Source: Halorientalis sp. (lineage in GTDB: Archaea > Halobacteriota > Halobacteria > Halobacteriales > Haloarculaceae). Taken from it: a DNA stretch of 64,000 nt. Each line of letters begins with the position of its first letter. Positions within the stretch are counted from its first letter, which is position 1. Where the stretch lies: the NCBI RefSeq assembly GCF_028275115.1, contig NZ_JAQCNH010000092.1, positions 1 to 64,000 of the forward strand, in the 5' to 3' direction. Below are positions 20,217 to 40,583 of the stretch, piece by piece. The position numbers and the translations under genes were made by a program. The notes under the pieces are model-generated. The model did not search any database and was not told the origin of the DNA. It worked only from the letters and a program-made list of their open reading frames with translations.

Positions 20217-21701
20217 ATGACAGACCAGACAGAGACCGAGACCGTGGGACAGTTCCCGAACACGTCGCCGTCGACTCCGCTCGCGCCGGTGGTGCTCACA
20301 CGACTCGTGTGGGCGCTGTTCGTTGCGAGTCTCGGTGCACTCGTGGCGCGACTCTGGACCGAGGGCGGGTGGACGGTCGCCGGGTTGGTGGCTGTCGACG
20401 GCCTGACTGTCCTACTGTGGGTCGTGGTCTCCTTCTTCAGTGGCATCGTCCACAGCTACTCGCGGCGCTACATGGCGGGCAGCGAACACCTCACTCGCTT
20501 TTTCGCCCGGCTGTCCGTCTTCACCTTGGTCGTGATGGGTCTCGTCGCCGCCGACCACGTCGCGCTGTTCGGGGCCGCGTGGCTGGCGATGGGGCTGGTG
20601 ATGGCGGACCTGATCGGAACCGTCCGCGGCTGGCCACAGGCACGAACCGCCGCGACCCTCGCCCGCCGGTACTTCCTCGCCAGTAGCGCGTTGCTGGGTG
20701 CCGCACTCGTGACGCTGTCCTGGGCGACGGGTGCGACGACGATTTCGGCTATCCTGGCGAACGTCGCGGCCGCCCCGGAGTGGGTTTCGCTCGTGGCGGC
20801 CGGCCTGCTCGTCCTGGCGGCGATGGTCCAGTCCGCGCTCGTCCCCTTCCACACCTGGTTGCTCTCCTCGATGACCGCGCCGACGCCGGCGTCGGCGCTG
20901 ATGCACGCCGGGTTCGTCAACGCGGGCGGGATTCTCCTGCTCCGATTTGCCCCCGTCGTCACCGTCGACTCGACGTTCATGCTCCTGGTCGTGGCCGTCG
21001 GCGCGGCCAGCGCACTGCTGGGAAAACTCCTGAAAGCCGTCCAGTCCGACGTGAAGCGCAAACTCGGCTGTTCGACGACCGGGCAGATGGGATTCATGAT
21101 CGCACAGGCCGGTCTCGGCTTCTTCGGGGCCGCCATCACCCACCTGATCCTCCACGGGTTCTACAAGGCCTACCTGTTCCTCTCGACGGGGAGCCAGGTC
21201 GAACACACCAGCCCGAAGAAGTCGGCGACCGGGACGACGACGCTCCTCGGCGGCGTCGTGACGCTACTCACCGCGGTCGCCGGTGGTGTTCTGTTCGCGC
21301 TCGTCACCGGCAAGGGAACGCACGTCGACAGCGGCCTCCTGCTGACGGGTCTGATCTCGCTGACGACGCTGCACGCGACCTGGACCACCGTCCGGAACAC
21401 CGACCTCCAGGCAACCGTCCGATACGGCGTCGTCCCGTTGATTTTCCTGCCCGCCGTCGCCGTCTACGCAGGAGTCTACACCGCGGTCACGACCGTCCTG
21501 GCCGGCGTCCCGCTCGTGACCGTGCCGACCGACCTGACACCGGTCCACGGTGTCGTCGCGGTGGCGTTTCTCGCCGCGTACGTCGCCATCGAGACCGGCC
21601 TCTACCGGCGGAGCCACCGCCTGTACGTGGCGCTGGTGAACGCCTCACAGCCCGCGACCGGAACCGTGCTGACTTCGACGGAGGAGTACAATGAACACTG
21701 A
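20217..21701 (+). CDS. dabB: NADH-quinone oxidoreductase subunit 5-like proton-conducting protein, DabB-type (start may be 20136)
   Basis: Multi-TM, MHAGFVNAGGILLLRF and KLLKAVQSDVKRKLGCSTTGQMGFM, directly overlapping dabA. Confidence 0.8.
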   Translation: MTDQTETETVGQFPNTSPSTPLAPVVLTRLVWALFVASLGALVARLWTEGGWTVAGLVAVDGLTVLLWVVVSFFSGIVHSYSRRYMAGSEHLTRFFARLSVFTLVVMGLVAADHVALFGAAWLAMGLVMADLIGTVRGWPQARTAATLARRYFLASSALLGAALVTLSWATGATTISAILANVAAAPEWVSLVAAGLLVLAAMVQSALVPFHTWLLSSMTAPTPASALMHAGFVNAGGILLLRFAPVVTVDSTFMLLVVAVGAASALLGKLLKAVQSDVKRKLGCSTTGQMGFMIAQAGLGFFGAAITHLILHGFYKAYLFLSTGSQVEHTSPKKSATGTTTLLGGVVTLLTAVAGGVLFALVTGKGTHVDSGLLLTGLISLTTLHATWTTVRNTDLQATVRYGVVPLIFLPAVAVYAGVYTAVTTVLAGVPLVTVPTDLTPVHGVVAVAFLAAYVAIETGLYRRSHRLYVALVNASQPATGTVLTSTEEYNEH

Positions 21702-24117
21702 ATCCGCGGTAACCGAGAGTGTCGAACTGGCAGCAAACAGCGTCGGTCCCGTCTGGCCGCTCCACTCGTTCGTGACGGCCAACCCGCTCGCCGGGTTCGA
21801 GGACCAGCCGTTCCACGAGGCCGTCCAGCAGGCCGAACGCCTGTTCGGCGGTGACGGCTACCCGAGCCCCGACCTGTTCCGCCGGGCCTGGGAGACGGGC
21901 CGCATCGACCCGCACGTCCTGGCCGAGGAACTCGACGCTCACGGCTACGACGACGACCCCGAGGCACTACTCGACCGGATGGACGCGACCGCCGACCAGA
22001 CGCCGGACGCCGACACGGCCGAAACGCCCGCGGAACGCGTCGACGCCGTCCTGACGAAGTGGCTCGCGGCCTTCCTCGATCAGGGGACGGCCACCTGGCC
22101 GATGCCTAACCGCGAGCAGGGATTCTACGCCGCCGTCCGGTCGGTGGCCTCCCACGACGGCGACATCCCGGACGGGGCTGCCGACGCGTGGCCCGCGGAC
22201 CCGGAGGACGCCATCGAGCGCGTCCTCGACGAGCACCCCAAAGACGAGTGGCCGACGATACTCGAGCAGCAACTGACCGCGCTTCCCGGCTGGGCTGGGT
22301 TCATCAAGCAACGCGCCGCCGACGACGACGCGTGGCAGTCGACGTACCCGATCACACTGGCCGAGTACCTCGCGGTTCGGCTCACACTTTCGGAACTGTT
22401 CGACGCGCCGATCACGCCACCAGAGCAGGCGACCGAGTCCAGCGTGACCGGCGACGGGGCCGTTCCGCTCGAAGAGGTCTGGCTCTCCGCGTGGGAGGCC
22501 AGCTACCGCTCGGAACTGGTCGACGCCGTGACCGATGCCGGCGCGTTGGCCGCCGAAGCCGACGGTGGCCGGCCCGACGCACAGTTCGTGTTCTGTATCG
22601 ACACGCGGTCGGAGATCATCCGCCGCCACATCGAGGCCACGGGCGACTACGACACACACGGCTACGCTGGCTTCTTCGGCATCCCGATGCGGTACGAGGG
22701 GTACGACGTCGACGTGACGGTCGACGCGTGCCCGCCTATCCTCGACGCTCAGCACCGCATCACGGACCGCCCGACGACCGACCCCGAGGACAAGGCGGCG
22801 TACGACCGCTGGTCGAACGTCCGCGACGCGGGCGGCAAGCTGGTGAAGTCGCTCAAAGAAAACGCCGCGACCGCGTTCAGCTACGTCGAGAGCGCGGGCA
22901 GCGGCTACGGGCTGGCGCTGGCCGCACGGACGCTCCTGCCGACCCGCGTCCGCGACGTTCTCGACGCCACCGACGAGCGCGTCCCCGACGCCCACGAGTT
23001 CTGTGAGCCGTCGGTCGACTACAACCCCGACGCCGTTACCGAACTCCGGGAGGGACTCACCGTGGCGGAGCGGGCCGACTACGCCGCGACCGCCTTCGAG
23101 CTGATGGGGTGGGAGCAGTTCGCTCGTGTCGTCGTCTTCGCCGGCCACGCCAGCCAGACCGCGAACAACCCGTTCGATTCGAGTCTCGACTGCGGTGCCT
23201 GTGCGGGCAACCCCGGTGGCCCGAACGCCCGCGTCCTCGCCGCCATCTGTAACGACGCGGACGTCCAGGCCGAACTCCGCGAGCGCGGCATCGAGATTCC
23301 CGACGACACCGTCTTCCTCGCCGGCGAACACAACACCACCACCGACGAGGTGGAACTGTACGACGGACCGGTTCCCGAGAGTCACGCCGACGACATCGCG
23401 CAACTCCGTGCCGACCTCGAAACCGCTCGTGCCGGCGCGGCCGCCGAGCGCACCGAGTCGATGGGTTCGGGGGGCGCTGGCGGCGTCCGCGAGACGGAGC
23501 GCCGTGCGGCCGACTGGGCCGAGACGCGTCCGGAGTGGGGGCTGGCCGGCAACGCCGGTTTCGTCGTCGGCCCGCGCGCCCTCACCGACGACCTGGACCT
23601 CGGCGGTCGGTCGTTCCTCCACTCTTACGACTGGACGACCGACGACGGCGGTGACGCGCTCGAAGCTATCGTGACCGGCCCCATGGTCGTCACGCAGTGG
23701 ATCAACACACAGTACTACTTCGCCACCGTCGACAACGACGTCTACGGCAGCGGGTCGAAGGTCACACATAACCCCGTCGGTAACGTCGGCGTCTACCAGG
23801 GCAACGGCGGCGACCTGATGACCGGCCTCCCGCTCCAGTCGCTCATGGCCGCCGACGACGAGCCCTACCACCAACCCCTCCGGCTCTCGACTGTCATCCA
23901 CGCGCCGGTCGAGCGTGTGACCGACATCCTCGCCGACCACGAGAACGTGACGGAACTGCTGGACAACCACTGGCTCTCGCTGACGGTCGTCGACCCCGAG
24001 CAGGACCACTGTGCGTTCCACTACGACGGCGACCTGACGTGGGTACCGGCCGACCAGTCCGACCACCGGCCCACCGCGACGACGTCGACCGTGGAAACCG
24101 GCACCACCGGCGACTAG
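21691..24117 (+). CDS. dabA: DUF2309 / DabA inorganic carbon transporter subunit
   Basis: FCIDTRSEIIRRHIE (C-x-D) and FAGHASQTANNPFDSSLDCGACAGNPGGPNARVLA (H...C) Zn-site motifs. Confidence 0.85.
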   Translation: MNTESAVTESVELAANSVGPVWPLHSFVTANPLAGFEDQPFHEAVQQAERLFGGDGYPSPDLFRRAWETGRIDPHVLAEELDAHGYDDDPEALLDRMDATADQTPDADTAETPAERVDAVLTKWLAAFLDQGTATWPMPNREQGFYAAVRSVASHDGDIPDGAADAWPADPEDAIERVLDEHPKDEWPTILEQQLTALPGWAGFIKQRAADDDAWQSTYPITLAEYLAVRLTLSELFDAPITPPEQATESSVTGDGAVPLEEVWLSAWEASYRSELVDAVTDAGALAAEADGGRPDAQFVFCIDTRSEIIRRHIEATGDYDTHGYAGFFGIPMRYEGYDVDVTVDACPPILDAQHRITDRPTTDPEDKAAYDRWSNVRDAGGKLVKSLKENAATAFSYVESAGSGYGLALAARTLLPTRVRDVLDATDERVPDAHEFCEPSVDYNPDAVTELREGLTVAERADYAATAFELMGWEQFARVVVFAGHASQTANNPFDSSLDCGACAGNPGGPNARVLAAICNDADVQAELRERGIEIPDDTVFLAGEHNTTTDEVELYDGPVPESHADDIAQLRADLETARAGAAAERTESMGSGGAGGVRETERRAADWAETRPEWGLAGNAGFVVGPRALTDDLDLGGRSFLHSYDWTTDDGGDALEAIVTGPMVVTQWINTQYYFATVDNDVYGSGSKVTHNPVGNVGVYQGNGGDLMTGLPLQSLMAADDEPYHQPLRLSTVIHAPVERVTDILADHENVTELLDNHWLSLTVVDPEQDHCAFHYDGDLTWVPADQSDHRPTATTSTVETGTTGD

Positions 24118-24347: not shown

Positions 24348-25532
24348 TCAGTCCCTCCAAGACTCGGTCGGCTCACCCTCCTCGCCGTTCGATGCGGCGG
24401 CCTCTGCCTCCTGTAGCTCCTGTTCTAGCGTCGCGGTCGTCTCGTCGATTGGGGCGAGGCCGAACTCGTACATCCGTCCCGACGTCTCGACGTCCCGGAA
24501 CTCGTACATCACGCCGTCGTCGACGACGGCGTAGACGTCCTGTGCCTGGTCGTGAATGACCCGTTTCTCCGAGTCGATGGCGACGTCGACGAGGTCGAGC
24601 AGCGTCTCGACGGGGACGCGGGCGTACTCCCCCGAGTCCGGGAGCTTGCCGCGAGAGATCCAGTCGGCGTACCGCACACTCTCGTAGTACTTCTCGAACG
24701 TCTCGAAATCCTCGATGCGTCGGTCGACCGTCCTGACGAACACCGCGAGCACCAACGCGCCGATACCGGCGACGACCCACCACAGGGACCGACTGGGCAG
24801 ACTCGCTTCGGTCCCGGGGAACTCGACGGCGGCGGTGGCGACAGATGCGTTGACCGGCCGAGCCACGGTCGTCGAGTGGTTCCGCTCGACGACCTGTGGC
24901 GTGTCGAACTCGTAGGCGCGGCCGGAGACCGAAACCGGGGAGCTCAGGTTCACCTGCCCGGCGTAGGTTCCCGTGTCGTAACTCGCGTTGACGAGGATCC
25001 GGACTCGAACGATGCCGACCTCGTCCGCGGCGGCCTTGACCGCTGCCAGTCGCTCGCGTGCGAGGCGTCGGACGTCGAGTGTCACCGTGGTCCGGGAACG
25101 TCCGTCTGTCACCCGGCGGGTGGTCGATGCCAACTCTCGTCGTTCGGACCAGAACACCGCTTCGTCGCGTGCGGCCGAGAGTTCCAGCACGACGTCCTGG
25201 GTGACGACCACATCCTGGTCGGTTGGCACGTTAGTCCCCACGCGAAGCGTCAGATTCGGCGCCGCCGACAGCAGGTAGACCGGACGGTCGGACACCGTCT
25301 CCCCCTGGTCGTAGAGCGTGGTGTTCCCGGTCACGGTCGCCGTCGCAGTGAGCGAGGTACTGACGGCCTGCTGGTCGGTCTGGACCGTCGTCCGCTGTGG
25401 GTCGGGTGTGTCGGTTGCCCCGGCCGCCGCGCCGGCGAAGGCGAACGCGCTGGCGACGACGAGTGCTGCCACCAGCACTCGACCGTACTGCCCGCAGACG
25501 TATTTCAGTCTGAGCGGTAATCCCGCGCTCAT
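24348..25532 (-). CDS. DUF5305-like membrane protein
   Basis: N-terminal signal/TM, extracellular beta-rich region, TM LWWVVAGIGALVLAVFV, cytosolic tail; next to signal peptidase. Confidence 0.65.
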   Translation of the reverse strand: MSAGLPLRLKYVCGQYGRVLVAALVVASAFAFAGAAAGATDTPDPQRTTVQTDQQAVSTSLTATATVTGNTTLYDQGETVSDRPVYLLSAAPNLTLRVGTNVPTDQDVVVTQDVVLELSAARDEAVFWSERRELASTTRRVTDGRSRTTVTLDVRRLARERLAAVKAAADEVGIVRVRILVNASYDTGTYAGQVNLSSPVSVSGRAYEFDTPQVVERNHSTTVARPVNASVATAAVEFPGTEASLPSRSLWWVVAGIGALVLAVFVRTVDRRIEDFETFEKYYESVRYADWISRGKLPDSGEYARVPVETLLDLVDVAIDSEKRVIHDQAQDVYAVVDDGVMYEFRDVETSGRMYEFGLAPIDETTATLEQELQEAEAAASNGEEGEPTESWRD

Positions 25533-25779
25533 GTCGCACGCCTCTGGAACCCGACGAACTCGCTCATAATATAATGTTCACCGGTCGAACACTAATGTGC
25601 GCGCTAACCCCCTGGTTGGCGGGGCACTTACCCGAGCGAAAGCGACGGTTCGAGCGGTGACGGTGTCCGTCTGGCCGTCGGTGGCCCCGTTCCGGTCTCG
25701 CTGGCTGGTGGGTTCGCGCCTACCACCGTGGAGCGAGCGCGTCCAGCCGCCCCGAAACGAGGCTGGGCGAGTCGGCCGC

Positions 25780-26625
25780 TCAGCGCCGGGGGTCGCTTCC
25801 CGTGTACGTCTCGTTGAGCACCTCGCGTCCGCCCGCCGTTTCGACCACGACAGTGTCTTTCCCGTTGTTCCAGATCGGCCTGCCCGAGTCCTGATACAGG
25901 TCGATTCGAGCGCTGGTCTCGCTGTCGGTCCCCGTGCCAGTTATTAGCTTCACTTTCTGGTCGGGCGCGACGGTCGTTCCCTGGGGAACGACGTACGGTG
26001 CCTGCGCCTCGTCCCGAACACTCCAGCCGGAGATATCGAGTGTCGTGCTCCCGGTGTTGGTGAACACGAGGAACTCGTCGTCGAGATTGTCGAACTCACT
26101 GCCGCGGGCGTTGGCGTTGATATCGGTGAGACGGAACCCGTCGGTGTTCTGTGCACAGCCGCTCGCATCGACCGTCGTCGACCGCGTCGCCGTCCCGGTG
26201 AACCGGGACCCGCTGGTCGTGGTGACGGTGAACGCGACAGTCTCCGGTGGTGACTCACAGCCGACAGTTACGGATGTCGTCGCCGACTCCCCCGGCGCGA
26301 GCGTCGTCTGTGCGTTCGACAGCGACCCCGAGGCGGTTTCGAGCGTGACCGCTGCGTTCACCGTCCGGTCCAGCCCGTTCGTCACGGTGACGAGCCGGCT
26401 CCTGTCACCGGCGGTCACACTGCCGGCGACCTCGAGACCGACGAGGCCGTTCGCATCGTCGGCCACAGCTGCCGTGGCTCCCCGCTCGAGGGTCCCCGAA
26501 CTGAACGCGGCAGTCGGACCGATGGTGAGGATTCCGAGAATAGCCACGAGAACGGTCACCGCGAGTAGCGAGGTGTACACCCGCCCCTTCCCGCCGCGCG
26601 AGCGCGACCGGCGACCGCGTCTCAT
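25780..26625 (-). CDS. Secreted lamin-tail-domain-like protein with SipW-type N-terminus
   Basis: TAAFSSGTLERGATAAVADDANGLVGLE signature; LTDINANARGSEFDNLDDEFLVFTNTGSTTLDISGWSVRD LTD core. Confidence 0.75.
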   Translation of the reverse strand: MRRGRRSRSRGGKGRVYTSLLAVTVLVAILGILTIGPTAAFSSGTLERGATAAVADDANGLVGLEVAGSVTAGDRSRLVTVTNGLDRTVNAAVTLETASGSLSNAQTTLAPGESATTSVTVGCESPPETVAFTVTTTSGSRFTGTATRSTTVDASGCAQNTDGFRLTDINANARGSEFDNLDDEFLVFTNTGSTTLDISGWSVRDEAQAPYVVPQGTTVAPDQKVKLITGTGTDSETSARIDLYQDSGRPIWNNGKDTVVVETAGGREVLNETYTGSDPRR

Positions 26626-27695
26626 CGCTCACCACCCAGTCGGCGAGACACCCGACGACGGGTGCCCCGGAGCGGAGCGAACGGGTCGACGAGCGCCCAG
26701 TAACACAGGTACAGCGGTCCGACTCCGGTGAGGACGGTCGCCAGTGCTGCCAGGAGCGGGTGCACACTGTGTAGTGCCGTCACGACGCCACGCGGTAGCG
26801 TCGCCGGATACGGATACATGTGGAGCGTGGCCGCGTGGACGCCGGACGTTTCCTGTGCCGGAACGGTGACCGTGACGTTCTGTTCCGAGGTGTCGAGGAG
26901 TCGCTGCCGGACCCGGTCGAGTCCGTCACCCCGCTCGGCGACAGTGCCGTTCGGACCAGCCGCGACCGGTGTGGTCTCGTCGATTCGCATCCCGTCGGCC
27001 CGAGTCACGAGGTGGGTGAACGGCGTCGACGCCGATCGGACGGTGAGTGACTCCGTTCGTTCCTCGCCGACGGACAGCACCCCGAGGTCCTTCGAGTCCT
27101 CGGCCGTGACTCGGTAGGTCTGCGTCTGATGGACGGCCGCCATCGACACGAGGACGACACCGACGAGGACCGCGACGACGAGTGCCGGCAAGATTACCTC
27201 ACGGCCACGAAGGACCGCAGGCCGGACACGCCGTCGAGACGACCGAGCGGCACTGATTGCCAACGCGCCGCCCAGTACTGTCACGACGGCGTACCAGTAC
27301 GTCCGGAGCAGCGAGAGCCCCGTTCCGACGTGCGGAACGACGAGCGGCCCGCCGCCGAGCGTCAGCACCTGTCCCGACACCGCAGACCGCTCGACGAGCG
27401 GATAGCCAGCCGCCTGGTCGGTGCTTGGGTTATTGTCGCCTTTCGTCACGATACCGTCGTCCGTCACCCTCATCGCACGGTGGGTGACGTAACTCCCGCG
27501 CTCGGCGGAGTAGAACGTAATCACGTCACCGGCCTCGACAGCCCCCGCGGGCACGAGGACGTACCCGCCATCCGGCTCGATGGTCGGTGCCATACTGTCG
27601 GACGTGACGTACGAAATCTGGACCGGTGAGGCCGCTGGCGCGACCAGCAGGGCGACCACGAGGACGACCGCGAGACCGACGAGCGTGCGCATCAT
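26622..27695 (-). CDS. ER/SipW-type signal peptidase I with C-terminal extracytoplasmic domain
   Basis: SDSMAPTI (Ser), SYVTHRAM (His), VTKGDNN (Asp); further TM segments and an additional domain. Confidence 0.85.
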   Translation of the reverse strand: MMRTLVGLAVVLVVALLVAPAASPVQISYVTSDSMAPTIEPDGGYVLVPAGAVEAGDVITFYSAERGSYVTHRAMRVTDDGIVTKGDNNPSTDQAAGYPLVERSAVSGQVLTLGGGPLVVPHVGTGLSLLRTYWYAVVTVLGGALAISAARSSRRRVRPAVLRGREVILPALVVAVLVGVVLVSMAAVHQTQTYRVTAEDSKDLGVLSVGEERTESLTVRSASTPFTHLVTRADGMRIDETTPVAAGPNGTVAERGDGLDRVRQRLLDTSEQNVTVTVPAQETSGVHAATLHMYPYPATLPRGVVTALHSVHPLLAALATVLTGVGPLYLCYWALVDPFAPLRGTRRRVSRRLGGER

Positions 27696-27770
27696 GTACT
27701 GAAATGGTGGGTTTGGTGAGAATCGAAACAGCAGGGGGGCTGTCGGTTAGCGACGGCCGATAGCCGGTGA

Positions 27771-28379
27771 TCAGGTCCCGTCGGAGACCGAGCCACCTTC
27801 GTCGACGTCGTCGATGGTGAACGCGAGGGTGCCCGAGAGGTCGTCCGTTGAGGTCACCGTCGCAGCGCCGTTGTGGCCAGTATCGACGACGACCACGACA
27901 TCGTAGGCGTCAGTGGCGGCCGCGTCGAGGGACGCTGTCTGGCCTTCCTCGGTGACGGTGCCGACCTGTGAACCGTCCTTGTAAATCTGGAACTTGAGGT
28001 TGGCGTCACTGTTACCATCGTCCACGTTGTGTGTGTATGCGACGTTGATAACGTGCGCCTCGTCGTCGTTGTTCTTGACCTGGAACGCGTGTGAGGTACC
28101 CGGATTCGCAGGGTCGCCGAGTTCGAAGAGCGCGTCGGTGTTCGCACCGGTTGCCGACCCGTTCTCGAAGTCGATCTTGAGTTGCTCCGTCGAAGGGTCC
28201 TGGAAGACGAGGTTCCCGGAATTGCCGTCGATCAGCGCCAGCAGACCGTTCTCGTCGGCCACGACGTCCGCGTTCGCCTGTCGCTCGACCGTCGCCGCGG
28301 TGAACGCACTCGCACCGACCGCCGTCGCTGCAACGAGGACGAGTCCGGCCACGAGTAACGTCTGTGTGATTCGTGCCAT
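27771..28379 (-). CDS. TasA/CalY-like (DUF1102-type) secreted protein
   Basis: MARITQTLLVAGLVLVAATAVGASAFTAATVERQANADVVADENGLLAL; beta-rich mature region. Confidence 0.65.
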   Translation of the reverse strand: MARITQTLLVAGLVLVAATAVGASAFTAATVERQANADVVADENGLLALIDGNSGNLVFQDPSTEQLKIDFENGSATGANTDALFELGDPANPGTSHAFQVKNNDDEAHVINVAYTHNVDDGNSDANLKFQIYKDGSQVGTVTEEGQTASLDAAATDAYDVVVVVDTGHNGAATVTSTDDLSGTLAFTIDDVDEGGSVSDGT

Positions 28380-28433
28380 TGCATTCGAACAGAGTCGACG
28401 ACGCCGGATAACCATCAGCTAACTTATTTGTTT

Positions 28434-28475
28434 GCGAGGTGCTTACCTCGCCGTTAGGGGGCCCACGCACCTCGC
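28434..28475. promoter_or_regulatory. Three GCGAGGT half-sites upstream of the TasA-like gene
   Basis: GCGAGGT-GCTT-ACCTCGC (28434-28451) plus ACCTCGC at 28469-28475. Confidence 0.5.
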
Positions 28476-29283: not shown

Positions 29284-29423
29284 CCGACACCGTCGAGTGG
29301 CGCTACGGCGCCGAAGTCCGGCTTACCAGCCGGTAAGTCGGCGGCTATCGGCCTCGTTAGCGAGTCTTCTTATTCGATACCAAATAACGAGCGTAGCATG
29401 GACCACGACAGAGTGTATCCGCC

Positions 29424-29933
29424 GTGCTGGGGGAGAGAATGGGTGTGACAGACGACGACGGCGGCGGCCGACAGGACTGGGCGGATGTCCTGCTCGTCGA
29501 AGCGGACCCGGCCGACGCCCGACTGATTTCGTGTGGGTTCCAACGACAGTCCGTGACCACAGATGTCGCCCCGGATGGGCGAACGGCAATCGAGCGACTC
29601 TCGACCGCGAGCGACGAGCGAACCGACGACCGACTCCCACGTCTCATCGTCCTCGACCTCGCCATCGGACCCCTCGACGCCGAGACGATTCTCCACGCGG
29701 TCAAATCGAGTCCGCGACTTGGATTGGTCCCAGTCGTCACGCTGAGTGACAGCGACGAGCACACTGCGGCCACGGACACCGACGCCGAACGGGCCTACGA
29801 CCTGGGCGCGAACGCCCATTTCAGCAAACCGGACGACGTCGAGCGGTACGTCGACGGCATCGAGCGGTTGGCGGCCTTCTGGTTCGAGTGGGCGACGTTT
29901 CCGCCAGAACTGTTATCTGTCGATGGAGCGTGA
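29424..29933 (+). CDS. Response regulator receiver-domain protein
   Basis: DVLLVEADPADARLI, LIVLDLAIGPLDAE, VTLSDSD, FSKPDD. Confidence 0.8.
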   Translation: MLGERMGVTDDDGGGRQDWADVLLVEADPADARLISCGFQRQSVTTDVAPDGRTAIERLSTASDERTDDRLPRLIVLDLAIGPLDAETILHAVKSSPRLGLVPVVTLSDSDEHTAATDTDAERAYDLGANAHFSKPDDVERYVDGIERLAAFWFEWATFPPELLSVDGA

Positions 29934-29940
29934 GATTGTT

Positions 29941-30837
29941 ATGAATTCGTTCGACAGTTCTGCCGACAGTTCCGGTGTGCCGGACTATCTGGTCGAGAGC
30001 GCGGCGCTCCTGTCGAAGAAGTGGCATCCGGCGATCGTGCGATGTGTCGCTGCCGGGGACGGTCTCGGGTTCAGTGACCTCGAAAACAGACTCAACGGCA
30101 TCTCGGCGAAAGTACTGACCGACGCACTGGAGGAACTGCGAGACCACCAGATTCTCGACCGCACGGAGGTGCGCCAGGAGCCGCTCCGCGTCGACTACAC
30201 GCTGACCGAGCGGGGGCAGGACTTCGCAGCTGTCATCGACTCGCTGGCCGACTGGGGCGAACAGTATCTCGCGCCCGACGACGAGGAACAGGTGGTGCTG
30301 GTCGCAGAGGACGACCGACGCATCGCGGAGATGCACACGGTCTGGCTCGAAGACGAGTACACCGTCCACACCGCACACGACGGCGAAGAGGCGCTTCGGG
30401 AACTCGATACGGGCGTCGACGTCGTCGTCCTCGACCGGCGAATGCCGGGGCTCTCCGGCGACGAGGTGCTCGACTGGATTCGGTCGCAGGGGTACGACTG
30501 CCGGGTCGCCCTCGTCACCTCCGAGGAGCCGGACCTGGACGCCGTCGCCCTCGGGTTCGACGAGTACGTCGCCAAGCCAATCCTCAAAGACGACCTCCGT
30601 GCGGTGGTCTCGGACCTCTTCGACCGGGCTGAGTACGACCGCGAGGTGAGACAGTTCCTCGCACTGCAGGCGAAACTCGCGGTGCTCGAAGCCGAGAATC
30701 CGGAGCCGGAACTCGCGGCGAGCGAGGAGTACAGCCGACTCGAAGCGCGGCTCGAAGACGCCCGCGAGCAGGTCGACGAGGACGACGACATCGAAGCACC
30801 AACACTGGACCGGCTGGGGGTGGACCCGTCCCGATGA
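29941..30837 (+). CDS. HxlR-type winged helix + receiver + HalX response regulator
   Basis: KKWHPAIVRCV...LTDALEELRDHQILDR (HxlR HTH), VLVAEDDRRIAEMHTVWL...VVVLDRRMPGLSG (REC), C-terminal HalX-like helices. Confidence 0.8.
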   Translation: MNSFDSSADSSGVPDYLVESAALLSKKWHPAIVRCVAAGDGLGFSDLENRLNGISAKVLTDALEELRDHQILDRTEVRQEPLRVDYTLTERGQDFAAVIDSLADWGEQYLAPDDEEQVVLVAEDDRRIAEMHTVWLEDEYTVHTAHDGEEALRELDTGVDVVVLDRRMPGLSGDEVLDWIRSQGYDCRVALVTSEEPDLDAVALGFDEYVAKPILKDDLRAVVSDLFDRAEYDREVRQFLALQAKLAVLEAENPEPELAASEEYSRLEARLEDAREQVDEDDDIEAPTLDRLGVDPSR

Positions 30838-33800
30838 GCTCCGAATTGGACACCGGCGCGATACGGAACAGTTCGCCGGCAGCGGTACTGGACCGGGTCG
30901 ACGAGGCTATCTACGCACTCGACACCGACTGGCAGTTCGAGTACATCAACGACCGGGCAGCCGAGATACTCGAACGTGACCCCGACAGCCTGCTCGGCGA
31001 GACGATTTGGGACGCGTTCCCAGCCGTCGCCGACACCGAGGCGTACGAGACGTTCCGCGACGCGATGGACACCGGTGAGCCAGCGCGATTCGACATGCAG
31101 TACGAACCGTGGGACGCGTGGTACTCCGTTCGGGCCTATCCCGACGCGGACGGGATTACGATCTGCTTCTACGACGTCACCGACGAACGGGGTCAACAGC
31201 TCGAGTTGCAGCGCAAACAACGACTGTTCGAGACCGTCTTCGAGGACACCGACGACGCGCTCGTCATCGCCGACCCGGACGGTCGGCTCACCGAGCTCAA
31301 CCCCGCTGCGGAACGATTGTTCGGCTACGACGACGTCGACACCCAGGACGAGAGTCTGTCACTCCTGTACGCCGACGAGAACGAGTACGAGCGCCGGGGC
31401 GAACGGCGCGACAGCCACGTCGCCGAGTACCAGCGCGCGGACGGTACGACCTTCGAGGGTGAGACAGTCGCCACGCCGCTGGACGGACCCAACGGCGAGG
31501 CGCTCGCGTTCCTGACCTCGATCAGAGACGTGAGCGCCCGTATCGAATACGAGGAACGGATGCAGCAGCGCAACGCGGCACTCCGGTCGTTCCACGAGAT
31601 TACGACCGACTCCGGGCGGTCCTTCGAGCGACGACTGACGGCGGTGCTGGAACTCTGCTGTGACCACCTGGACCTCGACGTCGGTCGTCTCGTCGCCGTC
31701 GACGACGACGAGTACACCGTCGAGGCGTCCGTCTCGTCGGGCGATTCGTCCGCGCCTGGTGACGCGGTCACGCTCGACGAGACGTTCTGTGAGTTCGTCG
31801 TCGACGCAGACCGTGTCGTCAGTTTCGACGGTGTGACTACTGGCGAGGTCACGGACCACACCGCGTGCCAGGACCGAGGCGTCGAGTCGTATCTGGGTGC
31901 GCCCGTGGTCGTGGACGGTGACCGCTACGGGACACTGAGCTTTTCTCGGCCGACGCCACGCGGTGAACCGTTCACCGAAAGCGACGAGACGTTCGCCCGC
32001 GTGCTGGCACAGTGGGTCGGCAAAGAGTTGAGTCGTCGCCGCCAGCGAGAGCGGGCCCGTGCGAGTCGCCGCCGGTTGCGCCAGATTATCGACATGCTGC
32101 CACAGTTGGTGTTCGCAAAGAAGGAGACCGGCGAGTTCCTGCTGGCGAACGAAGCCGTCGCCGAGGCCTACGGCACGACGGTCGCCGACCTCGAGGGGAG
32201 CACGGACGCCGACTTCGCCGACTCCCAGACGGAGGCCGACCAGTTCCGTCGAGACGACCGTGCGGTCATCGAGTCCGGGGAGCCAAAACACATTCCAGCG
32301 GAATCGCTGACCACCGCCGACGGCGAGCGGCGTGTTCTGGAGACGACGAAGATTCCCTACGACCCCGTCGATGCGGACGGTCACGCCGTACTGGGCGTCT
32401 CGACGGACATTACCGAACGCGAAGCACGTGAGGTCGAACTCGAGGTCCAGTCGGCGGCGATGGAGGCGTCGATGGACGGCATCTCGATCCTGAACACCGA
32501 CGGGGAGTACATCTCCATGAACGAGGCCCACGCCGCCGTGTTCGACTACGACCCGGCGGCCCTCATCGGCAGCTCCTGGCGACGGCTCTACGACGCCGAC
32601 GAGGTCGAGCGGATCGAGGAGACGGCGTTCCCGACGCTCGAACGTGCGGGCGAGTGGCGCGGCGAGACCGTCGGGATGCGACGGGACGGCAGCCCAGTCT
32701 ACCAGGAGATCACACTCTCGCTGCTCGACGACGGCAAACTGATCTGTACGAACCGGGACATCACCGCGCGCAAACAGCGTGAGCAGGAACTCGAACGGTA
32801 CGAGGCACTCGTCGAGAGCATGGACGAGGCCGCACTCGTCGTCGACAGCGATGGTCGCATCGAGTACGCAAACAAGGCATCGGCCTCGTACACGGGAGCG
32901 ACAGTCGACGACCTCGCCGGTCGGTCGATAGAGACGCTCGCCGAGGAGATGACGACGAACGACGAGGACCCGGACCGACTCGTCGGGGCAGTCGAGGCGA
33001 CTCTGGACGGAGGGACAGCGCCGGACCGATTGGAGGTGGCGCTAGATCTCCCGACGAGGACGGCGGTTATGGAGTACCAGCCGTCGTCGTTCCGTTCTGA
33101 CGGCAGGCGGAAGGCGGTCGTCGTCGCCCGGGAGGTCACGGAACGTAGAGCGCGCGAACGGAAACTCGAGCGCCAGCGGAGCAGAACCCGGGCACTGTTC
33201 GACGACTCGCCCGACAGCATCATCGTTCACGACGCCGACGGTGCCATCGTCGACGCGAACGAGACACAGGTCGAGATGCTGGGCTACGACCGGGAAACGC
33301 TGCTCTCGATGAACGTGTCGGAGTTCGAGGTCGGCCTGAGTCGAGCGGACCTCCGTGACGTGTGGGCCGACATGAGTATTGGCGAGACACTCAAAACAGA
33401 GGGAAAACATCGTCAATCGAACGGCCTCGTCTGTCCGGTCGAGGTCTGGATTGCCAAGACCGAGGTCGACGACGAGCCGCGATTCGTCGCGGTCTCCCGC
33501 GACATCAGTGAGCGGAAGACTCGCGAACTGGAACTCGAACGCAACCGTGAGTTCCTCGAAAAGACCCAAGAAAGCGCCGCAATCGGCGGGTGGGAGATCG
33601 AATTCGGAACGGGTGACCTGCAGTGGACCGACGAGGTCTACCGCATCCACGACCTGCCACTCGACGCCGACCCCACGCTAGCCGACGGGTTCGAGTACGT
33701 CCATCACGAGGACAGACCCACGGTCACTACGGCGTTCGAGCAACTGCGGACCGAGGGCGAGTCGTACGACCTCGAGGTTCGAGTCGTCACTGCCGACGAC

Positions 33801-36365
33801 GACGTGCGCTGGGTGCGAACGATCGGTGACCCACAGTTCGACGGAGCCGGCGAGGTCGTCGGCGCTCTCGGCACGTTTCAGGACATCACCGAGCGCAAAG
33901 AACGTGAGCAGGACCTGCGAGAACTCACGGAGCGACTCGACTTGGCCGTCGAGGGTGCGAACCTCGGTGTCTGGGACTGGAACGTCGAGACCGACGCCAT
34001 CGTTTTCAACGAGCAGTGGGCGCGGATGCTCGAGCTCTCGCCGGACGACATCGAACCGACGTTCGAGACGTGGAAACAGCGGGTCCACCCGGCCGACACG
34101 GACCGCGTCGAGGCGGCACTCGAGGCACATGTGGCCGGTGAGACGGAGCTGTATGATTGCGAACACCGGATGCAGACTGCAAGCGGGGACTGGAAGTGGA
34201 TCAGAGACGTCGGCAGGGTCGTCGAACGGGACGCAGACGATGAGCCAGTCCGTGCGGTCGGTATCCACCTCGACGTCACGGACCAGAAGGAGACAGAGAC
34301 CTCCCTCGAAGAGGAGCGAGACATGTTCGCACAGGGGCCGGCTGTCGTCTTCAAGTGGCAGAATGCAGACGGGTGGCCCATCGAGTACGTCTCGGACAAC
34401 GTCACCGAGACGTTCGGCTACACGCCGGCCCAACTCGAATCGGGCGACGTACCGTACATGAATTTAGTCCACGACGACGACCTCGAGCGGGTCGCCGCTA
34501 AAGTCGAGGGACACAGCGACGAGACGACAGAACGGTTCGGTCACGACCCTTACCGGATGGTCACCGCCGAAGGAGCGGTAAGGTGGGTGAAAGACCACAC
34601 CAAGATCATCCGCAACGACGGGGAGGTCACACACTATCTCGGCTATCTCATCGACATTACCGAACGGAAAGAACTCGAACAGTCGCTCCGCGACAGCGAA
34701 CGGTCGCTCCGCGAGGTTACGGAAATCGCCTCGGACACGGAGCGTGCGTTCCAGCCGAAACTGGAGGCGATCCTCGAACTCGGCTGTGAGCGACTCGACC
34801 TCTCGTACGGATTTCTGAACCGGATCGACGAGGACACCCAGCACGTCGTCGAAGCGACGGGAACACACCCACGGCTCCAGCCCGGCGAATCGGCTCCGCT
34901 CTCGGAGACGTACTGCCGGAATACGATCGAGCAGGACACGGTGCTCGACATCGCCGACGCCGCCGCTGGGGGCTGGGAGGACGACCCTGCCCACGGTGCG
35001 TTCGAGCTTGGCTGCTACATCGGGGGCAAAATCATCGTTGAAGGCGACGTGTACGGGACACTCTGTTTCGCGGACGACGATAGCCGTGCCAAGACCTTCG
35101 ACGAGACAGAGCGAGCCTTCGTCGAGTTACTCGTCCAGTGGCTCAGTTACGAACTCGAGAGCAACGCCGTCGAGACGAAACTCCGGGAACTCAACGAGAC
35201 CGCACAGCGACTGCTGGCGACCGGTGACGCCGACGAGGTCGGGTCGGCCGCGACCGAGAGCGCGAGTGCGGTACTCGACCTGCCGATAACGGGCGTCTGG
35301 TGGTACGAGGAATCGGCCGACGCGCTCGTCCCCGCAGGCATGACCGACGAGGCCGCGGCGGTAATCGACACCCAGCCGACGTTCGACGGTGGTGGCTCAC
35401 TGGCCTGGGAGGCGTTCGCCGACGGCGAGACACGACTGTACAACGACGTACACGCCGCCGACGAGGTGTACAACGAGGAGACGCCCATGCGATCCGAGGT
35501 CATCGTCCCCCTCGGTGAACACGGGGTGTTGATCAGCGGCTCCAGACAACAGCGGGCGTTCTCCGAGACCGACCGGGAACTGCTCGAAATCCTCTCGGCG
35601 ACCGTTGAGGACGCGCTGAACAGAGCCGAGCGCGAGCAGGTGTTACGGGAAACCCGTGAACGTCTCACCCAGTCGAACCAGGATCTGGAACAGTTTGCGT
35701 ACGCGGCGTCCCACGACCTCCAGGAGCCCCTGCGGACGATTTCGAGTTATCTCACACTGCTGGAACGACGCCATCGGGACGACCTCTCCGGGGACGCGCT
35801 GGAGTTCATCGACATCGCCGTCGACGGTGCCGACCGGATGCGGGAGATGATACAGGCACTCCTGGCGTACTCACGTGTCGGGACGCGCGGCGACGCGTTC
35901 GAGCCGACGGACATGGCTACCGTCTTCGAGGCGGTGACGCGGAACCTGTCGGTGACTATCGAGGAGGCCGACGCGACCGTCGACGTTCCAGAGGACGAGG
36001 CCGCAGGGACCGTCGTCGGCGACCAGAGCCAACTCGTCCAGTTGTTCCAGAACCTCGTCGAGAACGGTATCAAGTACAGCGAGGACGACCCGCGGGTCGA
36101 AGTATCGGTCGAACGCAACGACGAGGCGCTCGAGTTCGCCGTCACGGACAACGGCATTGGCATCGCGCCCGACCAGGTTGAGGACATCTTCGAGGTGTTC
36201 CAGCGACTCCACACCCGTGCGGAGTTCGAGGGCACCGGCATCGGCCTCTCGCTCTGTCAAAAGATCGTCGACCGTCACGGCGGCGACATCCGGGTCGAAT
36301 CGTCGCTCGACACGGGCTCAATCTTCTTCATCACGTTGCCCGTAGAGGTGGACACACGTGACTGA
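30834..36365 (+). CDS. Giant multi-PAS/GAF sensor histidine kinase (1843 aa)
   Basis: About nine PAS and three GAF segments by eye, then ASHDLQEPLRTISSYLTLLERR HisKA and NGIKYSEDDPRV...GIGIAPDQVEDIFEVFQRLH...GTGIGLSLCQKIV HATPase. Confidence 0.9.
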   Translation: MSSELDTGAIRNSSPAAVLDRVDEAIYALDTDWQFEYINDRAAEILERDPDSLLGETIWDAFPAVADTEAYETFRDAMDTGEPARFDMQYEPWDAWYSVRAYPDADGITICFYDVTDERGQQLELQRKQRLFETVFEDTDDALVIADPDGRLTELNPAAERLFGYDDVDTQDESLSLLYADENEYERRGERRDSHVAEYQRADGTTFEGETVATPLDGPNGEALAFLTSIRDVSARIEYEERMQQRNAALRSFHEITTDSGRSFERRLTAVLELCCDHLDLDVGRLVAVDDDEYTVEASVSSGDSSAPGDAVTLDETFCEFVVDADRVVSFDGVTTGEVTDHTACQDRGVESYLGAPVVVDGDRYGTLSFSRPTPRGEPFTESDETFARVLAQWVGKELSRRRQRERARASRRRLRQIIDMLPQLVFAKKETGEFLLANEAVAEAYGTTVADLEGSTDADFADSQTEADQFRRDDRAVIESGEPKHIPAESLTTADGERRVLETTKIPYDPVDADGHAVLGVSTDITEREAREVELEVQSAAMEASMDGISILNTDGEYISMNEAHAAVFDYDPAALIGSSWRRLYDADEVERIEETAFPTLERAGEWRGETVGMRRDGSPVYQEITLSLLDDGKLICTNRDITARKQREQELERYEALVESMDEAALVVDSDGRIEYANKASASYTGATVDDLAGRSIETLAEEMTTNDEDPDRLVGAVEATLDGGTAPDRLEVALDLPTRTAVMEYQPSSFRSDGRRKAVVVAREVTERRARERKLERQRSRTRALFDDSPDSIIVHDADGAIVDANETQVEMLGYDRETLLSMNVSEFEVGLSRADLRDVWADMSIGETLKTEGKHRQSNGLVCPVEVWIAKTEVDDEPRFVAVSRDISERKTRELELERNREFLEKTQESAAIGGWEIEFGTGDLQWTDEVYRIHDLPLDADPTLADGFEYVHHEDRPTVTTAFEQLRTEGESYDLEVRVVTADDDVRWVRTIGDPQFDGAGEVVGALGTFQDITERKEREQDLRELTERLDLAVEGANLGVWDWNVETDAIVFNEQWARMLELSPDDIEPTFETWKQRVHPADTDRVEAALEAHVAGETELYDCEHRMQTASGDWKWIRDVGRVVERDADDEPVRAVGIHLDVTDQKETETSLEEERDMFAQGPAVVFKWQNADGWPIEYVSDNVTETFGYTPAQLESGDVPYMNLVHDDDLERVAAKVEGHSDETTERFGHDPYRMVTAEGAVRWVKDHTKIIRNDGEVTHYLGYLIDITERKELEQSLRDSERSLREVTEIASDTERAFQPKLEAILELGCERLDLSYGFLNRIDEDTQHVVEATGTHPRLQPGESAPLSETYCRNTIEQDTVLDIADAAAGGWEDDPAHGAFELGCYIGGKIIVEGDVYGTLCFADDDSRAKTFDETERAFVELLVQWLSYELESNAVETKLRELNETAQRLLATGDADEVGSAATESASAVLDLPITGVWWYEESADALVPAGMTDEAAAVIDTQPTFDGGGSLAWEAFADGETRLYNDVHAADEVYNEETPMRSEVIVPLGEHGVLISGSRQQRAFSETDRELLEILSATVEDALNRAEREQVLRETRERLTQSNQDLEQFAYAASHDLQEPLRTISSYLTLLERRHRDDLSGDALEFIDIAVDGADRMREMIQALLAYSRVGTRGDAFEPTDMATVFEAVTRNLSVTIEEADATVDVPEDEAAGTVVGDQSQLVQLFQNLVENGIKYSEDDPRVEVSVERNDEALEFAVTDNGIGIAPDQVEDIFEVFQRLHTRAEFEGTGIGLSLCQKIVDRHGGDIRVESSLDTGSIFFITLPVEVDTRD

Positions 36366-39326: not shown

Positions 39327-40583
39327 ATGGAGGTTAGGCGTACCGCGCCGGTCAAACTCGTTGTTCCCGACGAATACCACGACGACCTCCACGAAACTGC
39401 CGACCAGTTCCTCTATTGTGCAAATGAGGCGAGTGACTACTGCTGGGACAACGCCGACTACGAAGACTGCGTCACCTCGAACGTGACAGCCAGAGATGCG
39501 TTGTACGACCGACTCCGCGAGGAAACAGACCTGACAGCGAATCTCGTTCAAGAAGCCATTCGGCGTGCCGTCCACGCCGTCGATAGTGGTGTTGACCGCT
39601 GGAAAAAAGGCAAACGGACGAACAAACCAGAGTTCACCTCGTGGAGTATGGTCTACGACAAGCGGAGTGCGACGTTCTACCGGAACAAGATCTCGCTTTC
39701 GACGGTGAACGGGCGCATCGAGTGTGAGTTTGAGTTGCCAGCGGACAGTCCAACACCATACGAGGAGTACGTGCTTTCCGACGACTACGAGCTTCGGACG
39801 AGTACACTCCAGTACGACCAAGCGACTGACGAGTTCTACTTCCACGTCAAAACGCGGCAAGTAGACGACGAAGGCGAGGCTGTTGAACTTGAGGGTTCGG
39901 ACGATACCGGGCATCAAACTGTCCTCGGGATCGACCTCGGCGTGAACAGCCTTGCTGTTTCGTCAACAGGCACGTTCTGGAGTGGTGACGAGTACGACCA
40001 CTGGATACAGGAGTTTGAGAAGCGCCGCGCAGAGATGCAACAGCGTGGGACACAAGCTGCTCACAACGCCTTGTTGCGGCTTGGAAAGCGAGAGCGAGCA
40101 TGGCGGAAACAGTATATCCACACAGTCGCCAACGAGATTGTTGCCGAAGCGGTTGCCCACGAGTGCGACGTGATCGTATTCGAGGACTTGATTGATATTC
40201 GAGAGCGGCTGCCCCACGCTAACTGGCATCACGTCTGGGCATTCCGTCGCCTGTACGAATACGTCGAGTACAAGGCTCCTGAACAGGGTGTGGCGGTTGA
40301 GGAGGTCGAGCCAGAGCATACGAGCCAGCGGTGCTCGCACACCGATTGTGGCTTCACCCATGAAGATAACCGCGACGGCGAGCAGTTCCAGTGTCTGAAG
40401 TGTGGATACGAGATCAACGCGGACTACAACGGCGCGAAAAACGTCGGATTGCGGTACATGCGGAAGCGACAACACGGACTGCGTTCCTCGCCCACGTCGG
40501 GGAGCGCAGACGCACCAGTAGACGTGCGTATAAATAGTGGGATGTTGAACAGCGACGGCTATCGGCCAACTGCCGACAGTTGA
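39327..40583 (+). CDS. tnpB: Intact IS1341-type TnpB RNA-guided nuclease
   Basis: LGIDLGVNSLAV, VIVFEDLIDIRERL, CSHTDCGFTHEDNRDGEQFQCLKCGYEINADYNGAKNVGLR. Confidence 0.95.
   Translation: MEVRRTAPVKLVVPDEYHDDLHETADQFLYCANEASDYCWDNADYEDCVTSNVTARDALYDRLREETDLTANLVQEAIRRAVHAVDSGVDRWKKGKRTNKPEFTSWSMVYDKRSATFYRNKISLSTVNGRIECEFELPADSPTPYEEYVLSDDYELRTSTLQYDQATDEFYFHVKTRQVDDEGEAVELEGSDDTGHQTVLGIDLGVNSLAVSSTGTFWSGDEYDHWIQEFEKRRAEMQQRGTQAAHNALLRLGKRERAWRKQYIHTVANEIVAEAVAHECDVIVFEDLIDIRERLPHANWHHVWAFRRLYEYVEYKAPEQGVAVEEVEPEHTSQRCSHTDCGFTHEDNRDGEQFQCLKCGYEINADYNGAKNVGLRYMRKRQHGLRSSPTSGSADAPVDVRINSGMLNSDGYRPTADS

Follow-up and report, generated by a model that had tools for sequence, protein, structure and literature searches.

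A candidate Sec-routed, TasA/Taf-type fibre module with its own SipW-type peptidase and a DUF5305 partner in Halorientalis

We analysed a 64,000-nt stretch of Halorientalis sp. (assembly GCF_028275115.1, contig NZ_JAQCNH010000092.1, positions 1 to 64,000; hereafter the window), drawn from a genome of 3.53 Mb in 150 contigs, for a four-gene cluster that an initial annotation had described as a SipW/TasA-like secretion or fibre module. All four open reading frames are present on the minus strand, co-directional as claimed, and all have coding-like scores. The first module gene encodes TasL (202 aa, 27771..28379), a pilin-like subunit of TasA/TafE-like type (Taf refers to fimbriae exported by twin-arginine translocation, Tat). 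It is followed by an S26 signal peptidase of endoplasmic reticulum (ER)/SipW type (357 aa, 26622..27695), by a second pilin-like subunit with a TafC-like core and a C-terminal lamin-tail domain (LTD; 281 aa, 25780..26625), and by a DUF5305 membrane protein (394 aa, 24348..25532). The TasL and peptidase genes are 75 bp apart and the ATG of the lamin-tail gene overlaps the peptidase stop by 4 bp (an ATGA overlap), whereas 247 bp separate the lamin-tail and DUF5305 genes. By their common strand, gaps of 75 and -4 bp, and conservation, peptidase and likely substrates lie in one operon, as in SipW-TasA systems. Relatives of TasL start at the Met corresponding to 28379. The basic RRSRRR-like leader kept by third-gene relatives speaks for the start at 26625 (281 aa).

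The peptidase passes TIGR02228 (53.6 bits, cut-off 51.85), and its residues Ser34, His72, Asp87 and Asp93 do not vary among 10 relatives, bearing out its earlier description as a Ser-His-Asp enzyme of ER/SipW type. It does not reach the SipW equivalog model NF046067, scoring 30 bits against a cut-off of 190. Its C-terminal extension comprises predicted membrane segments and an extracellular part.

A peptidase search across 99 genomes of the order gave matches in 64; we read 40 of the surrounding regions, and 80 more named loci came from a scan of the genome collection. Two locus types emerged. The type-1 order, that of the window (TasL, peptidase, third gene, DUF5305), was intact in 28 of 30 loci, or 26 of 28 once two duplicate places were removed, so the four-gene set is conserved in relatives as the initial annotation had required. 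These loci span several haloarchaeal families, with genera including Halorientalis, Haloarcula, Halobellus, Halonotius, Haloquadratum, Haloferax, Halospeciosus, Halolamina and Halomarina; Halorientalis salina and Haloferax mucosum are among the carriers. Type-2 loci open with a divergent DUF7344 regulator and an exported protein. At least one TasA-like gene and a gene for a CARDB-type exported protein come next, in some loci with a multi-pass membrane protein after them, and the peptidase and DUF5305 stand last. The window genome carries one locus of each type, with type 2 on another contig (C139). A type-1 peptidase was found at E<=1e-39 in 7 of the 99 genomes and the window-like order is missing from most, so the module is patchy. 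An iterated profile, CARDB-like and named 'BIG', drifted to a wide range of sandwich proteins (90 matches) and was not used as evidence.

In a quick tree the type-1 peptidases formed one clade of 22 with full support (Shimodaira-Hasegawa-like approximate likelihood ratio test, 100). The exception was L081_6, type 1 by locus, which fell among type 2. The nearest relatives of the window peptidase were from Haloarculaceae. At one type-1 locus, in a metagenome-assembled genome of the uncultured archaeon A07HN63 (L082:4965-6091), the peptidase gene occupies two overlapping frames, as if frameshifted or mis-sequenced.

The fourth gene had been called DUF5305-like, an identity now secured by PF17231 (E=1.1e-33, 117 bits against a gathering threshold of 29). 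Its product has a predicted topology of transmembrane segment, extracellular beta-sandwich, second transmembrane segment and conserved cytoplasmic domain (model predicted local distance difference test, pLDDT, 87); conserved residues of the cytoplasmic domain are W291-I292 followed by L-DVAI. Across the 99 genomes, 76 of 85 DUF5305 genes lay within 6 kb of an S26 match, where ~0.6 were expected, and 60 of these 76 sat downstream on the same strand. The initial annotation had offered this protein as a new component; its standing partnership with the peptidase is supported by these counts, and among the papers searched on DUF5305, DUF1102 and DUF7344 we found none that matched or that names it. 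The pairing is kept in genomes of lower G+C content in the same phylum. There the neighbours of the two genes pass the TIGR04088 SipW-type signal and Peptidase_M73 (TasA/camelysin) models at three non-halophile loci (L171, L172 and L175) and the DUF1102 cut-off at two others (L177 and L179; e.g. 1.1e-43). The company kept by the same two genes in these genomes links the module of haloarchaea to SipW-TasA systems. DUF5305 likely anchors or nucleates a fibre beside the peptidase. Two architectural variants were also noted: L171 and L175 each have a single DUF5305 gene and two S26 peptidases set among several SipW-type substrates, and L034:2310-6128 (the same as L076) encodes a DUF5305 protein of 1272 aa whose very long C-terminal extension matches nothing in Pfam.

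TasL has a Sec-type signal peptide, then a conserved AF-x6-R-x5-V stretch, the probable donor strand, and then a beta-sandwich. The predicted model is of moderate confidence overall (pLDDT 74), with the sandwich well predicted. Searched with Foldseek against 350,542 PDB chains, it ranked the Pyrobaculum bundling pilus 7ueg_A first (E=2.2e-4) and the Sulfolobus thread filament 7pnb_A second (E=4.9e-4), the only matches below 0.001; P-pilus subunits came next, with weaker E-values. The fold comparison with TasA/AbpA that had been proposed as a check thus placed two donor-strand filaments on top, at template-modelling scores (TM-scores) of 0.39-0.44. A TasA/camelysin-type sandwich finds no Pfam match in TasL, and the model ranks a TasA-like bundling pilus first at a TM-score of ~0.4. 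Profiles gave a second line of evidence. A mixed profile of TasL relatives matched PDB 9p0a, named 'Pilin', over its whole length (E=4e-22), and with a type-1-only profile 9p0a was still first (E=2.8e-4; domain 0.003). TasL is likely a shaft or adapter subunit. Two other assignments were rejected: DUF1102 (PF06510), to which window TasL has no match, and TafA proper, after searches of TasL and its relatives with the NCBIfam Taf models.

The conserved part of the third-gene family is a TafC-like pilin domain, homologous to TasL. What follows it varies. The window protein has the lamin-tail domain (PF00932, E=1.3e-14), L033 two malectin domains and CBM35, and L092 a LamG lectin-like domain; L071, L072 and L073 have unassigned domains there, and L079, L080 and L084 have nothing. 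By sequence comparison, then, the lamin-tail domain is an accessory and belongs to a set of C-terminal domains that replace one another. The initial annotation was right that a lamin-tail protein is present, but the domain as a conserved module component was rejected, being replaced or missing in relatives. Because a fixed assembly domain joined to an exchangeable binding domain has the look of a tip or side adhesin, we consider that role probable for the third-gene protein.

The two exported proteins had also been said to share a substrate signature just after their hydrophobic segments. That stretch is real: 13 of 27 positions are identical and the local score is 61, against 18.5 ± 4.0 (maximum 40) for 5000 shuffles. 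Its reading as a recognition tag did not hold. The TasL and third-gene families align across the whole core domain (hhalign E=2.5e-9, 111 columns), so the stretch reflects homology and is not evidence of a tag; an export tag independent of homology was rejected on this ground. Both families are built alike, with a hydrophobic signal, A-F, R, V..D and then the sandwich, and conservation in both subunits is highest in the N-terminal strand. From the alignments, the shared stretch is the first strand of a homologous pilin-like beta-sandwich domain, and probably the donor strand.

Aligning upstream regions revealed a candidate cis-element, GTAAS-N18-GTTAG. Three sites occur in the whole 3.53-Mb genome, all at this locus; a backward control gave one. 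The first (28419..28446, minus strand, GTAAG-N18-GTTAG) lies 40 bp before the TasL start and is kept upstream of TasL in relatives. The second (25604..25631, minus strand) lies 72 bp before the DUF5305 start, marking a second transcription unit, and the spacing is also 72 bp in L071 and L072. The third (29333..29360, plus strand) lies 79 bp before a divergent set of signalling genes. Halorientalis salina (L071, genome G266) has four such elements in 3.7 Mb, three of them at equivalent places, at 49, 72 and 78 bp. Variants differing by one base or with N19 spacing lie upstream of TasL and/or DUF5305 in L072, L073, L074, L075, L077, L082 and L092. The pattern was chosen after looking at the data, so it is the count over the entire genome and the replicate in L071 that give it weight. 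A second short palindrome overlaps the element upstream of TasL, at window 28434-28451 (GCGAGGTAAGCACCTCGC), in L074 (CACTTACAGTGCGGTAAGTG) and in L092 (GGTTACAGTGAGGTAACC), which suggests three half-sites.

The divergent genes, all on the plus strand, encode a receiver-domain protein (29439..29933; PF00072 at 7.9e-6, below its cut-off), an HxlR-type DNA-binding protein (29923..30837; PF01638 3.7e-20, receiver PF00072 2.3e-18, HalX PF08663 2.9e-15) and a histidine kinase with several PAS and GAF domains (30834..36365; HisKA 1.1e-11, HATPase_c 3.1e-29), probably in the same operon as the other two. A gene for an HxlR protein lies nearby in 7 of the 28 type-1 loci and in 0 of the 91 type-2 loci. 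Among type-1 loci, gene and element occurred together in 6, the element alone in 3, HxlR alone in 1 and neither in 18 (p=0.0014). The HxlR-type protein is our candidate for the binder of the element. Four further type-1 loci (L031, L032, L036 and L086) have receiver/PAS proteins beside the pilin gene, without an HxlR gene or a strict element. By eye, a TnpB-like transposon-associated protein lies downstream of the signalling genes (39327-40583, plus strand). On the other side of the module, a NuoL-like multi-pass protein and an 808-aa partner (20217-24117, plus strand) are its convergent neighbours, and by eye resemble a DabA/DabB inorganic-carbon transporter pair.

We therefore propose that the locus encodes a Sec-routed surface fibre of TasA/Taf type, processed by a SipW-type peptidase, with an adhesin subunit, a DUF5305 anchor and HxlR/two-component control, and we regard this as probable. 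The proposal is based on the conserved genes and homologous domains, the catalytic residues, the similarity of the modelled fold, the Sec/Tat distribution given below and the cis-element; cleavage by this particular peptidase, polymerisation, the adhesin and DUF5305 roles and the identity of the operator-binding protein are what we infer from them. TasL and the lamin-tail protein would be exported through Sec, and the neighbouring peptidase would cut their signal peptides near the conserved Ala-Phe (Ala25-Phe26 in TasL). Cleavage would free the N-terminal strand (AF...R...V), and this strand could then be inserted into the following subunit to complete its beta-sandwich, as happens in TasA and in archaeal bundling pili. 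TasL may serve as shaft or adapter, while the second subunit, with the same core and an exchangeable C-terminal domain, may serve as tip or side adhesin, and DUF5305 would hold or seed the fibre next to the peptidase. The HxlR/two-component system may control all three transcription units through the shared putative operator. The core of the initial annotation thus survives, supported by the 26 of 28 loci and the fold; the tag, the lamin-tail domain as a fixed component and the supposed lack of precedent do not.

Several results weigh against this proposal. TasL alone matches no TasA/CalY, DUF1102 or Taf model in Pfam and NCBIfam, and as a lone query it matched no PDB chain. The TasA/CalY-like label given to it earlier is carried by relatives, profiles and predicted fold. 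That fold fits 7UEG and 7PNB with low TM-scores and high root-mean-square deviation, and the 9P0A profile match partly falls in the signal region. Residues 22-43 of TasL, the presumed donor strand, have pLDDT below 50; in the model this would fit a strand without its partner, but a low score by itself is no proof of it. A third, weaker S26-like gene elsewhere in the genome (C84) makes exclusive processing by the module peptidase a presumption. The DUF5305 fold search returned generic arrestin/Fn3-like sandwiches only, so its role is a guess. The fibre itself is predicted here from genes and models, and none has been seen.

The closest rival is that the locus is a plain member of the Tat-fimbriae system, divergent in sequence. 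Tat-fimbriae of haloarchaea were reportedly described by Galeva et al. (iScience 2025, 28:111793). According to a paper that cites this work, they are appendages exported by Tat, with TafA as core component (PMC12687288). NCBIfam holds TafA, TafC, TafE and TafF models, and remote kinship shows in matches that all stay under the curated cut-offs: TafE is matched by 5 of the 19 TasL relatives (best 4e-7), and TafC by 7 of the 14 relatives of the third gene (best 3.8e-9). The Taf-like type-2 loci with Tat signals share the pair of peptidase and DUF5305. Yet no window protein reaches any of the four Taf cut-offs, and by motif count a twin-arginine motif is present in 2 of 35 type-1 subunits against 56 of 78 of type 2 (Fisher p=1.5e-11, for sequences that are not independent). 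Type-1 peptidases also form their separate clade, and type-1 loci showed none of the DUF7344 regulators that are usual in type 2. We judge plain membership unlikely.

It is quite doubtful, too, that the genes serve to secrete surface proteins that stay monomeric (as matrix or S-layer decoration), a module in which the peptidase would mature membrane- or S-layer-bound adhesins with no polymer. Lectin-like C-termini would suit a monomeric adhesin, and polymerisation is an inferred step; set against this are the donor-strand filaments that rank first by fold, the solved relative named 'Pilin' and the N-terminal strand that both subunits conserve above all else. The idea that unrelated secreted proteins came to lie by chance beside a housekeeping signal peptidase would draw on the presence of S26 peptidases in most genomes and on window proteins that themselves match no named system, but it is already contradicted by the conserved order, by DUF5305-S26 coupling far above chance and by a private operator common to three units, and we give it hardly any credence.

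Beyond the Sec-routed fibre proposed above, a stronger version can be put forward only tentatively, as one we find a little hard to favour: a distinct Sec-dependent class of archaeal donor-strand fibre, with a two-subunit filament, swappable tip adhesins (lamin-tail, malectin/CBM35, LamG), its own SipW-type peptidase, a DUF5305 platform shared across archaeal TasA-like systems, and a private HxlR/two-component operator. If the proposal is true, archaeal TasA-like fibres would make up a single broad family with a constant core, the pair of DUF5305 and peptidase, around which subunits, tip domains and the route of export (Sec or Tat) differ. A function could then be given to DUF5305, that of anchoring the fibre or helping it assemble, and haloarchaea would have, in their exchangeable binding domains, a pilus-tip-adhesin logic resembling that of bacterial chaperone-usher pili. 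The locus-specific operator and the adjacent HxlR and kinase genes make regulation directly testable in the culturable carriers H. salina and H. mucosum.

The module resembles Bacillus tapA-sipW-tasA in its SipW-like Ser-His-Asp peptidase adjoining likely substrates, in the conserved Ala-Phe after the signal peptide and in beta-sandwich subunits, which TasA also has (PMC9674648). It differs in that the window subunits have no TIGR04088 signal or TasA/M73 match, no TapA was found, and DUF5305 and a lectin- or LTD-bearing subunit are added. AbpA of Pyrobaculum (7UEG) and the Sulfolobus thread (7PNB) are the closest solved folds to the TasL model, but at 12-13% identity, TM-scores of 0.39-0.44 and in a different phylum. 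The 'Pilin' 9P0A is a sequence-profile relative of TasL over its whole length; unlike TasL, it has a Tat-type N-terminus (MNRRNVLVG...), and so belongs with the type-2 subunits. Compared with the Tat-fimbriae, type-1 subunits carry Sec-type signals, and type-1 loci differ further in a peptidase clade of their own, a minimal layout of four genes and a C-terminal binding domain that can be exchanged. Given the remote TafE and TafC kinship and the Tat-fimbriae already published, the arrangement is not unprecedented, and of the novelty first suggested it is the DUF5305 partnership that is supported. The module is a Sec-routed sister of the Tat-fimbriae, related yet distinct and not wholly new: several of its parts are undescribed in the papers searched, while its kind is known from TasA, bundling pili and Tat-fimbriae.

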